49,658 nt of DNA from Methanomicrobiales archaeon HGW-Methanomicrobiales-2 (GTDB lineage Archaea; Halobacteriota; Methanomicrobia; Methanomicrobiales; Methanoculleaceae), in assembly GCA_002839645.1 (NCBI GenBank), contig PGYL01000016.1, positions 1-49,658 on the forward strand, written 5' to 3'. Positions 14,509 to 18,763 of this stretch are shown here, in pieces. How positions within the stretch are numbered: position 1 is the first letter of the stretch; each line of letters begins with the position of its first letter. The notes beneath the pieces were generated by a model, which made no database searches, had not been told where the DNA came from, and was given only the letters and a program-made list of their open reading frames with translations. The translations under genes were made by a program, and so were the position numbers.

Positions 14509-14832
14509 CTACTGTACGGGAGCCTGAAGGTTCCCTGAGGCACACCGGCCTGCCTCCCCTTTCTTGAACTCGTAGCCGGCTCTGAGCAGATCGAGGAAGA
14601 TCGCCTGGTATGCCCCTCGCTCGCAGAGTTCGAGATGGTAGCGGTGCACCGTTGATTTTGTCCCGTACTTTGCCGGCACATCGCTCCAGGTGCATCCGGT
14701 GGAGAGGACGTACAGGACCCCGTTGAAGAGGTCCCGGGGGTCACGGCGTGGCCTCCCTATGTGCGGTTTCCGGGGTGGGAGGTGCTTTTGAACGATCTCC
14801 CAGAGGCCATCGTCGATCTCCCGGAATGCCAT
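14509..14832 (-). pseudogene. Truncated IS5-type transposase (N-terminal DUF4096 part)
   Basis: The product starts MAFREIDDGLWEIVQKHLPP and contains PRDLFNGVLYVLSTGCTW and CERGAYQAIFLDLLRAGYEFKK, the N-terminal domain of IS5/IS1031-type transposases (DUF4096). After about residue 92 the match ends and an unrelated short tail follows; the DDE catalytic half is absent. It is therefore an IS remnant. Its promoter still looks present: CTATAAAT on the minus strand near 14858-14865, about 27 bases upstream of the ATG. The truncation lies directly against the end of the cbi operon. Confidence 0.75.
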
Positions 14833-14887
14833 GTGTCCCGCATGTCTCCCGGGAGGATTTATAGTTTCACATGAAAATACGATGGAT

Positions 14888-16123
14888 TCATCCCCCTCCA
14901 TGCGGATCCGATTGTTTCAGGAAGATGTTCGCCTCAGCAAGTATCCGAAACATCTCATTTAACGTCAGGAACTTCGGTTGTTTCGCTTTCGGGATACGGA
15001 TCTCCTGTTTTCTGTTCCCCTCGGTCTCTTCATACTCCTCGTCGTTCACTACCAGATGCCAGAGGATCGTGACGATTTTGCGTGCCACCGCGACGATCGC
15101 CTTGCTAAACCCGATCACTCCCACTTTCCGGGTGAAGAACGCATGAAACCGTGATGATCGGGTTCGGACTGCTGCCTGAGCGATCTCGACCAGGATCCAT
15201 CGGGCGGTTCGGGAACCTCGCTTGGTGATTGCCCCCATTCTGAGATGATCGGCGGATTGGTTCACCGTCGGCACGAGCCCGACCCAGCTGGCAAGTTTAT
15301 CTCCGGATGAGAAGTTCGTGAAGTTCCCGATCTCAGCGATCAGGGTAACCGCAGCGATGTACCCAATTCCGGGTACCGACGTTAGGATCCGGAGGAGTCG
15401 CGTCTGCCTGGCAACACATTGGTGTACCCGCTGCATGAGAGTCTCGATCTGGTTGTCCAGCTCCTTGATGAGGTTAAGGCAGCATTGCATCCGGATGATT
15501 GCCAGTTCAGGAAGGGTTGTCTCCAGGATGCTCTGGATCTCCTCACTGCGCTTTCGGGTGCGGACAGGGAGCGTTGCAAGGATCTCCGCGATGGATTTCC
15601 CATCCGTGACACCGGTCAGGATGAGCATCCCGCTCTTGCCGAAGATATCAGAAAAGACTGTTGAAAGCCGGAACAGGCAAGAGTCGAGGATGTGGTGTAC
15701 CTGGTTCTTGAGATCCGTCCGCTTCTCAACCAGGAACTTTCGCAACCGGATCAACGAGCGCAAGTCACGGGTTTCCGGGTCGGGAATCCGGGAAGCAGGA
15801 ATGAGGTCGTGCAGTGCCAGTTTGGCGATCCAGATTGCATCGATGATGTCCGTCTTTTTATGGGATATTGCTTTGATATCCCGGGCGTTGCCGACGATCA
15901 CCGGAATCTTTCCCACAAACAGGTCATACACCTGTATCCAGTAGTCACTGGTGGATTCACAGGCCACAACCTCGCAATCGTGGAAGAGAACCCAGTCCCT
16001 CAGGGCGAAGAGATCCGTCTGTGTGCGGCTGAACCGGTGTTCGACCGTGGTTCCACCCTGATCAATGATAGCAGCAAGGATGAACTTTTTGTGGAGGTCT
16101 AATCCACAGGCTTTTTCTTTCAT
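14888..16123 (-). CDS. IS110-family transposase (DEDD recombinase)
   Basis: A 411-residue transposase. The N-terminal RuvC-like domain begins KACGLDLHKKFILAA, with the first catalytic aspartate, and continues with DCEVVACESTSDYW and the KKTDIIDAIWIAKLA segment. The C-terminal IS116/IS110/IS902 domain has LTSVPGIGYIAAVTLIAEIG, SGDKLASWVGLVP and KRGSRTARWILVEIA. Length and motifs are those of an intact gene. The ATG at 16123 is used because the family start lies there; upstream in-frame sequence is the non-coding end of the element. Codon use is less GC-rich than that of neighbouring genes, in line with recent arrival. Confidence 0.9.
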   Translation of the reverse strand: MKEKACGLDLHKKFILAAIIDQGGTTVEHRFSRTQTDLFALRDWVLFHDCEVVACESTSDYWIQVYDLFVGKIPVIVGNARDIKAISHKKTDIIDAIWIAKLALHDLIPASRIPDPETRDLRSLIRLRKFLVEKRTDLKNQVHHILDSCLFRLSTVFSDIFGKSGMLILTGVTDGKSIAEILATLPVRTRKRSEEIQSILETTLPELAIIRMQCCLNLIKELDNQIETLMQRVHQCVARQTRLLRILTSVPGIGYIAAVTLIAEIGNFTNFSSGDKLASWVGLVPTVNQSADHLRMGAITKRGSRTARWILVEIAQAAVRTRSSRFHAFFTRKVGVIGFSKAIVAVARKIVTILWHLVVNDEEYEETEGNRKQEIRIPKAKQPKFLTLNEMFRILAEANIFLKQSDPHGGG

Positions 16124-16314
16124 ACGTCTACACACTTCCGGTGTGGACAGAGGATTCGCCTCGAAGGTCAATTTCACATCCGTGTTCTCCGACACAGTAT
16201 GGCCTTCAATGGCGAACAGCGCTAGTTTTAGGAACAGGATCGAAGCCCTAAAATTATCCCAGCCTCCTCTGCCCACATCCCGTGATCGGGCTTCGACAAG
16301 AAGAGTATTTTCAT
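16124..16314 (-). ncRNA. Candidate bridge RNA region of the IS110 element
   Basis: IS110-group elements encode a structured bridge RNA in the non-coding end upstream of the transposase. Here this region holds a nine-base perfect inverted repeat (16240-16248 with 16288-16296, arms tcgaagccc/gggcttcga) enclosing a 39-base loop, and a second hairpin just before the transposase start (16126-16148, arms gtc..cacac/gtgtg..gac). No protein-like reading is seen. The RNA itself and its guide loops are inferred from position and folding only. Confidence 0.35.
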
Positions 16315-16397
16315 CAGTTGTGCCTGTGGCCGACACGGCCTCATAGGCGTTTTAGGACGGGCCAGATCCGGTTGCCAGAGATTTCTACGGCCGGAGA

Positions 16398-17336
16398 CTA
16401 TCGCCCCGAAGGACCGTGCGGAGCATAGTTCGTGACGATGATCTCGCGGATCTCTCCCCGTTTCGTCCCGTCGCAGTTGATCGCCCTCCTCGCCGGAACC
16501 CGGTCTATGTGGTATCCGGCGTAGAGATCGTCGAAAAACACGTCGTCCTGGTCGATGTTCTTCGGGTCCGAGTTGCTCAGCATCAGCCTGGCGCCCCTGG
16601 CGTCGCACCGTGTGTAGAATGCTGCCAGGCGCCTCTGTTCCTCGTCGGAAAACCTGTTCTTCGAGTACTGGGTGAACGACGATGTCCTGTTCAGGGGCCG
16701 GTACGGCGGGTCGAAGTAGACGAAGGTATCCTCTGCGATGCAGGACTCCGAGAGCGTGAAGTCGCCGAGGTGGACGGTTGTATTCCGGAGCGCAGCGGAA
16801 TCAGCCCGGAGCACACCTTCATGCAGGATCCCCGGGCTTGCGTACCTGCCGAACGGGACGTTAAACCCGCCTCGTGAGTTTACCCGGTAGAGGCCGTTAA
16901 AGCACGTCTTGTTGAGGAAGATGAGTTGAGCAGCCCTCTCGACCCACCCCTCGCCGTACTGCCTGAAATCGATGCCTTCCCTCTCGCGGTTGAACGTATC
17001 CCGCATGGCGTAGTAGTACTCCTTCCGCCCGGCGTCGTCCTTTGATAGAAATTCATCTGAAATATCGCTTAAATCGTCGATGAGGCTGGAAACATCGTTC
17101 TTCACGACGCTGTAGGCGAGGACCAGTTCCTCATTGATATCGAAGAGGTGGCATTCCCTGAACCGGAAGATGCTGTTGAAATGGAAGTAGACCGCTCCAC
17201 CGCCCATGAACGGTTCGACGAAGACCGAGAGGGTTCCCTCGTTGAGTTCTTCCGGAACTCTCAGGGTGAACGCATCGAGCAGTTGCGCCTTTCCGCCTGC
17301 CCACTTGAGGAACGGTCGTGCGGTGGGTGTTGCCAT
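16398..17336 (-). CDS. DNA adenine methylase, Dam/D12 class
   Basis: A 312-residue N6-adenine methyltransferase. Motif I is near the N-terminus (RPFLKWAGGKAQLL, 7-20, and EPFMGGGAVYF). Motif IV is D209-P-P-Y212 in VYFDPPYRPL. Other D12 features are FLNKTCFNGLYRVNSRGGFNVPFG and LSNSD. This class methylates GATC in Dam and DpnII/MboI-type systems, so GATC is the likely but unproven target. No restriction enzyme gene lies beside it, so it may be an orphan methylase, possibly a remnant of a system. A broken second methylase lies upstream on the same strand. Confidence 0.88.
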   Translation of the reverse strand: MATPTARPFLKWAGGKAQLLDAFTLRVPEELNEGTLSVFVEPFMGGGAVYFHFNSIFRFRECHLFDINEELVLAYSVVKNDVSSLIDDLSDISDEFLSKDDAGRKEYYYAMRDTFNREREGIDFRQYGEGWVERAAQLIFLNKTCFNGLYRVNSRGGFNVPFGRYASPGILHEGVLRADSAALRNTTVHLGDFTLSESCIAEDTFVYFDPPYRPLNRTSSFTQYSKNRFSDEEQRRLAAFYTRCDARGARLMLSNSDPKNIDQDDVFFDDLYAGYHIDRVPARRAINCDGTKRGEIREIIVTNYAPHGPSGR

Positions 17337-17564: not shown

Positions 17565-18589
17565 TCACGGCCTTCTTGCGGTCGCCGCTCTCCTCTCCCT
17601 TCGGCCGGCCCGAACGCCCCGCTTCTTCAGCATCTTCTCGATAGACCACCGGCCCCGGCCAAGTTCTCTACCCACTATCCCGACGGCGTCCTTCTTCGTC
17701 TCGCCGGACTCGATAAGCCCGGTGAACCGGGGGATCAGGGTTTTCGATCGCCGTCCGTCCAGGGCTTACCCCGGTTCTCCGGCCCCGCGCTCTGCGGGAC
17801 CCTCAGCGACGGCAGTAACCATCCCTGCGCGAGATCCCGCATCTCCGCCGCCTTCAGGTCAAACACCTGCCCTGAGATCTCAAACCCGGTCGCCCGGCAG
17901 TTGAGGCCGATCGCGACCCGCACGGTCGAAAAGCCCCCAAGGAACATATCGCACACCAGGTCGCTTTCGTTGCTGCTGTACTGGAGCATCTTGACGAGCA
18001 GCTCCGTCGGCAGTTCGTTCTTGTTCTTCACCTTACCCGGCTTGTACTCGCGGTTGATGATCCAGACATCTTCACGGTCCCGGTAATTCGGCGACCCGTT
18101 GTCGGGGGCTTTCTCGGCGGCCCCGTAGCGTTATTCCAGGTTGAATGTCCTCTCACCGCCCGGTTTTTCACAAAAGAGGATGTGGTAGTGGGAGGAGACG
18201 TACTTCCGGCTGGTGTAAACCCCGAAGTTGTACTTCCAGATGATGTGGTTGACCTCGCGAAGTCCGGTCTCTGTGAGGGCGGCGAGGATGTGGTAGAGGT
18301 TTGTATACCCTGAGACGATGTAGATCGACCCGCCGGGCCGGAGGATCCGTTCGGCCTCCCGGATCCACCTCCGGCTGAATTCCCCGTACCCGGCTGCGGG
18401 GACCTCAACGTAACCGTCGACAACGAACCTCTCGTCCCGGTTGTAGTGCTGGTGCAACCGGTCGCCGTTGATGCCGTACGGGGGATCGGTGACAATCAGG
18501 TCCACGGTGTCGTCGGGGATATACGCTCTTGCCCCCGCGATGCAGCCGCCGTTGTAGAAGACGTTGCCGTTGATCTCCTTGGACCTCAT
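17565..18589 (-). pseudogene. Broken DNA methyltransferase (in-frame TAA plus frameshift)
   Basis: The N-terminal part (from ATG 18589, after ggagag) starts MRSKEINGNVFYNGGC and has the catalytic DLIVTDPPYGING motif, then GGSIYIVSGYTNLYH. A TAA at 18131-18133 stops it after TFNLE. Reading continues in the same frame with DREDVWIINREYKPG, NKNELPTELLVKMLQYSS and the AdoMet motif CDMFLGGFSTVRVAIGL, down to 17735. A frame change near 17740-17760 is then needed to reach a plausible C-terminus, LIESGETKKDAVGIVGREL and RGRWSIEKMLKKRG, ending about 17565. Two separate lesions point to a dead gene. The family is a beta-class N6-adenine/N4-cytosine methylase. No pyrrolysine or other recoding is expected at TAA. 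Confidence 0.8.
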
Positions 18590-18763
18590 GCTCTCTCCTG
18601 CAGGCTGCAACGCATTCACGTTGGTCGTGCGACCATAAGATACTCGTTATAGCCCCGCCTCCCTCCCGGTTCGTGCGGGCGTCTGCCGGGAGGTAGCATT
18701 AATACCATTCAGGCAAACGGAAAACTGACTGTCGGTAGTACAACAGCCACGGGTGCTTGGATA

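Follow-up and report, generated by a model that had tools for sequence, protein, structure and literature searches.

The window analysed here, the full 49,658 nucleotides of contig PGYL01000016.1 from Methanomicrobiales archaeon HGW-Methanomicrobiales-2 (assembly GCA_002839645.1), carries on its minus strand an intact IS110-family element of 1.49 kb in a Methanoculleus-type archaeon. Comparison with its relatives indicates that the non-coding left end very probably encodes a bridge RNA at 16143-16275, which would make the element an RNA-guided DNA recombination system. The element, its gene and its ends are laid out as follows.

14866..16352, minus: whole IS110-family element, delimited by the limits of sibling homology, the ends of multi-copy relatives and 14 empty target sites
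14888..16123, minus: DEDD transposase gene, 411 aa (PF01548 and PF02371; NF033542)
16351-16352 and 14866-14867, minus: AA core dinucleotide at both element ends, placed to +/-1 base in a run of A
16353..16360, minus: left target flank (..CGTCCTA); GTCCCAAAACTATAA or a close variant of it at each of the 14 uninterrupted homologous sites
14856..14865, minus: right target flank ACTATAAATC, upstream of a DUF4096/IS5-type gene
16322..16348, minus: terminal left-end (LE) hairpin GCCTATGAGGCCGTGTCGGCCACAGGC, conserved in alignment columns 22-42 with compensatory changes and retained in miniature inverted-repeat transposable elements (MITEs)
16305..16314, minus: left subterminal inverted repeat ATGAAAATAC, a perfect 10-bp inverted match to 14871-14880
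14871..14880, minus: right subterminal inverted repeat GTATTTTCAT, then the left-donor (LD) bases GTG and the core AA, read from the sequence

The transposase gene is intact, as an earlier note on this DNA had claimed. Its product matches NF033542 ('IS110 family RNA-guided transposase') with 263 bits and belongs to the IS110 family in the broad sense, with DEDD_Tnp_IS110 and Transposase_20 domains, the D/E/D/D residues and the Tnp serine. The catalytic candidates are D9, E56, D92, D95 and S290, the last of which aligns with a serine of ISCro4. In a tree of 24 transposases, with several long branches and an unsure deep order, it falls among other archaeal elements and a few bacterial ones, separate from both ISEc11/IS4321 and IS621. 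We rejected the archaeal elements as a single clade of their own, since a few bacterial transposases fall among them in this tree.

BLAST comparison with other Methanoculleus-type genomes showed that DNA homology to sibling elements (transposase protein identities of 81% and 76%) spans 16353 to 14865 and then stops, which gives a left non-coding end of ~230 nt and a right end of ~20 nt. The non-coding 5' end described in the earlier note is therefore present, its length being ~230 nt instead of 190 and the element extending to ~16352; the region 16143-16275 lies inside these limits. Multi-copy relatives show the same end anatomy from family to family (G002, n=4; G201, n=5; G418, n=8; G502, n=6; G500, n=6), the left end being a run of A then C and the right end reading TTTNCAT, three bases and AA. 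The four G002 copies are identical to one another, and that relative is 43% identical to the window element, which is the only full copy in its genome. Almost every aligned relative has a motif similar to the left subterminal inverted repeat.

Searching with the left and right flanks joined together recovered uninterrupted homologous target sites in 14 related genomes, most of which read GTCC-CAAAA-CTATAAG directly upstream of a DUF4096 (IS5-type) gene. The window left junction is GTCCTAAAA and the right junction is AAACTATAA; the empty sites and these junctions therefore place the insertion inside the A run; the core is AA, and nothing beyond it is duplicated. A CT core would fit the window flanks alone and was discarded, as the sibling flanks and the multi-copy families give AA. 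The core is thus AA in this lineage and AG in one relative (G054b), and not the CT of the IS621 type.

Alignment of 28 left ends delimited a conserved block, from which the following structure was obtained (cells paired are counted over 26 relatives).

16143..16275, minus: predicted bridge RNA, 133-nt conserved core, from covariance model R1 and conserved pairing
16270-16274 (5' strand) / 16145..16149 (3' strand), minus: closing stem P1, 89% of cells paired, with C-G/U-A/G-C exchanges
16221..16263, minus: target-binding loop, closed by P2 (16260-16263/16221-16224), 92% of cells paired, two-sided changes
16246-16249/16236-16239, minus: P3, hairpin inside the target loop, 94% of cells paired, two-sided changes
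16181..16196, minus: P4, inner hairpin of the donor-binding loop (16192-16196/16181-16185), 100% of cells paired, two-sided changes in 3/5 pairs

Taken together, helices P1-P4 pair in 94% of cells, against 33-44% when the partners are slid, and display 76 two-sided compensatory changes. RNAalifold recovers the same helices, and the whole left end folds better than its shuffles (z -3.65, 0/200). Conservation of structure among siblings had been set as a test beforehand, and it is present, with compensatory changes. R1, built from the 26 relatives with the window among its training sequences, matches the window at 16143-16275 only (112.4 bits, E 3.9e-25, the score of a training sequence). It is present in 57 of 232 genomes of the class and in 49 of 393 drawn from the phylum, and no Rfam family matched here.

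The earlier note had placed a possible bridge RNA in this non-coding end, a proposal that our data support with another extent, other helices and guides, and a guide order that is not that of IS621. Its nine-base stem (16240-16248/16288-16296) does exist in the sequence; one of its arms lies beyond the conserved RNA, and the second falls within a small hairpin, itself conserved, and the loop of that hairpin. We dismissed it as the main stem of the RNA because it is not conserved: it pairs in 52% of cells over 28 relatives versus 46% after shuffling, to be compared with the value for P1-P4. The second hairpin of that note, at 16126-16148, overlaps the 3' strand of the actual closing stem (16145-16149).

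The internal loop bounded by P2 and P3 carries the target guides, and the second loop, around P4, carries a donor guide.

16250..16258, minus: right-target guide (RTG) GAUAAUUUU, 5' strand of the target loop, reverse complement of core and right flank
16225..16234, minus: left-target guide (LTG) UUCCUA with core AA and handshake bases AC, on the target-loop 3' strand; matches left flank and core in the same sense
16173..16179, minus: left-donor guide (LDG) AUGUGAA, 3' strand of the donor loop, identical to the element right end ATGTG-AA
16197..16204, minus: donor-loop 5' strand GGCCAUAC, same-sense match to the LE segment beside the subterminal repeat
16315..16324, minus: LE segment GGCACAACTG, partner of the donor-loop 5' strand, retained in MITEs without the RNA

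Across families, the 3' strand of the target loop corresponds to the left flank, the core and one to five first element bases. Guide matching over 24-28 families gave z-scores of 5.0 for RTG, 6.8 for LTG, 11.3 for LDG and 5.3 for the handshake bases, which were tested against the first LE bases, and none of 20,000 permutations scored as high. With identical guides collapsed to one row per distinct guide (RTG, n=22; LTG, n=26; LDG, n=17), the corresponding values were 5.1, 7.1, 9.3 and 4.7 (0/50,000 permutations), and LDG matched the right end exactly in 14 of the 17 distinct guides. These permutations preserve composition, and collapsing identical guides removes relatedness only in part. Wrong-strand, wrong-loop and swapped-loop controls over the 24-28 families were null. 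The IS621 arrangement, with LDG on the donor-loop 5' strand, was ruled out once the donor stem had been read from the fold and the alignment.

Single families point the same way. The RTG of G418 (ACUUAU-UU) predicts the right flank ATAAG that its eight copies share, and the eight right flanks of that family, at unrelated insertion sites, agree with the guide at the first four positions in 8, 6, 7 and 6 copies; for targets, multi-copy families escape the relatedness objection. In G054b, the core AG is accompanied by corresponding alterations of both LTG and LDG. The loops of the window copy likewise match its own target flanks and donor end: its LTG (UUCCUA-AA-AC) and left junction (GTCCTA-AA-AC) have nine bases in common, TCCTAAAAC, and, when the window site was compared with the guides of all families, its own LTG ranked best and its own RTG joint best.

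The first bases of the left end are not matched by the donor-loop 5' strand. This strand has instead a same-sense match to the segment bordering the left inverted repeat on its outer side (z 8.4, 0/2000 permutations, 32 families), and gives no comparable signal elsewhere in the left end. A match of this sense would mean that the RNA pairs with the bottom strand at 30-40 nt from the core, on the far side of the conserved hairpin.

Comparison among relatives shows the element ends, the conserved structure and the base-matching, and the mechanism that we propose takes its remaining steps from work on IS621 and IS1111, by analogy with which we would expect transcription, circle formation, assembly of a ribonucleoprotein and catalysis. 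The bridge RNA would be encoded between the left end and the transposase gene and bound by the transposase. At the insertion site, LTG of the target loop would pair with the bottom strand over left flank and core, and RTG of that loop with the top strand over core and right flank. The donor loop would pair, through LDG, with the ATGTG-AA of the element right end. Strand exchange at the AA core would then insert a circular element, whose abutted ends would read TTTTCATGTG-AA-ACGCC.

Several points weigh against this interpretation. Common descent among the elements raises the permutation z-scores to some extent, the junction and guide strings used in the matching tests were read by hand from alignments, and the core position of single-copy elements was assigned by analogy. 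In addition, the window RTG agrees with its own right flank at 4/5 positions only, and a right-donor guide (RDG) sought as the reverse complement of the first LE bases gave no signal at any LE offset tested. The matches between loops and DNA might stem from common ancestry or A-rich composition, without any pairing, given that the core and flanks are A-rich and that close relatives share guide and end alike. We consider this extremely improbable, as the signal withstands composition-preserving permutation even after identical guides are collapsed, controls using the wrong strand or the wrong loop are null, the unrelated insertion sites of G418 agree with their guide and the core covaries with the guides in G054b.

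Alternatively, the conserved RNA could be a structured leader without guides, acting on the transposase gene through its transcription or its translation. In favour of this, the RNA immediately precedes the start codon, and the closing stem and the hairpin at 16126-16148 could mask the start. A leader, however, would have no need to match the target flanks or the distant right end of the element, and the loops match both in one family after another. A leader devoid of guides is in our view very improbable; a leader role may exist alongside the guide role. It is also conceivable that the RNAs of this lineage are bridge RNAs and that the window copy is decayed, its own RNA being nonfunctional. 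It is the only full copy in its genome and has one RTG mismatch at its own site, but the open reading frame retains its catalytic residues, LDG is identical to the right end, and the RNA is full-length with every modelled helix unbroken, so that we regard decay as unlikely. A guide RNA in an intact element remains our preferred interpretation.

MITEs of ~134 bp have lost the gene and the RNA, and retain the LE segment, the LE hairpin and both subterminal repeats, with a donor end that is mostly of the window type (ATGTG-AA). They number 7-8 in G002 and about 6 in G034, with singles in other Methanoculleus genomes (for example L259 61-194, at G000:C33:51145-51278; L244-L261). From sequence, this pattern of retention is as expected of a cis-acting donor part, and window-type elements could mobilise the MITEs in trans.

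The target regions yielded further observations. The DUF4096/IS5-type gene next to the window element is a transposase fragment of 130 aa (14509-14901), with the IS110 insertion in its upstream region, and uninterrupted homologues of this site are common across the genus. The 81%-identical sibling (L003, about 3762) has inserted precisely at the left core of a second IS110-type element, forming a tandem pair, and the G127 and G210 elements likewise come after right-end-like motifs; insertion into sequences of other mobile elements is known for the IS1111 group. The G500 family (L187, L188; G500:C1 near 2747278 and 2749534) has the target ATTG-AA-AC, and two of its copies are flanked by GTTCCACGAAAACAAGGATTGAAAC, which resembles the end of a CRISPR repeat. 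DNA methyltransferase genes adjoin the window element, one adenine-specific (D12 class) and one N6/N4, at 16398-17336 and 18131-18619.

Bacterial elements gave weak R1 matches at the right place, in Citrobacter (17.6 bits), Paenibacillus (13.5 bits) and Enterococcus (11.8 bits). Those of Paenibacillus (L204 611-754) and Citrobacter (L206 601-733) lie directly upstream of the transposase gene, and the Paenibacillus relative has CAGGGTAG both in its putative donor loop and at a right-end-like motif. These upstream layouts suggest, from weak matches, that the lineage extends beyond archaea.

For most IS110 elements in ISfinder a bridge RNA has already been predicted, in a study whose databases included archaeal genomes (PMC11208160), and an archaeal bridge RNA as such may therefore not be unknown; we found no published description of one in the literature searched, where the experimental tests of bridge RNAs concern bacterial elements only. 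The present set provides archaeal elements, from Methanomicrobia and other Halobacteriota, whose guides, cores and targets have been read from sequence.

The window element resembles IS621 (PMC11208160, PMC11208158) in its DEDD transposase with a Tnp-domain serine, its RNA in the left end upstream of the gene, its target and donor loops, the core dinucleotide within the guides and the handshake bases beside the core. The left end is longer than the right end, and, with the RNA upstream of the transposase gene, this is the layout of the IS110 group (IS621 type). In IS621, however, LTG (A50-U58) precedes RTG (G77-G80) and LDG precedes RDG (PMC11208158), whereas here the order is reversed, with RTG then LTG and with LDG on the 3' strand of the donor loop. 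The core is CT there and AA here, the subterminal repeats measure 2-3 bp there and 10 bp here, one closing stem encloses both loops here, and the transposase sits on another branch. The ISEc21 seekRNA of the IS110 family (PMC11187229) shares the upstream non-coding region and the two target-matching segments, but has the bottom-strand match first.

According to Siddiquee et al., the top-strand complement comes first in IS1111 elements and second in the IS110 type, and the RNA follows the transposase gene in IS1111 and precedes it in IS110 (PMC11187229). In the window lineage the top-strand complement precedes the bottom-strand match, which is the IS1111-group order, and the perfect 10-bp subterminal repeats fall within the IS1111 range from Durrant et al. 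(PMC11208160), given here as 7-17 bp. Long subterminal inverted repeats and a 3-bp right extension are also shared with IS1111-group seekRNA/bridge RNA elements such as ISEc11, ISPa11 and ISKpn4 (PMC11187229). Unlike that group, the window lineage has its RNA upstream, a transposase outside the ISEc11/IS4321 branch, and a left extension of ~38 bp with a hairpin instead of 6-7 bp. By sequence comparison, therefore, the lineage combines the IS1111 guide order with the IS110 upstream position of the RNA. This mixture of order and position, the AA core, the 10-bp subterminal inverted repeat and the donor-loop strand matching an inner left-end segment appear to be new here; that the lineage constitutes a third kind of bridge-RNA element is a tentative idea that we rather doubt. 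The mixture of traits bears on the divergence of the IS110 and IS1111 groups, and an AA core with a different reading of the donor end would broaden the rules for programmable recombinases.
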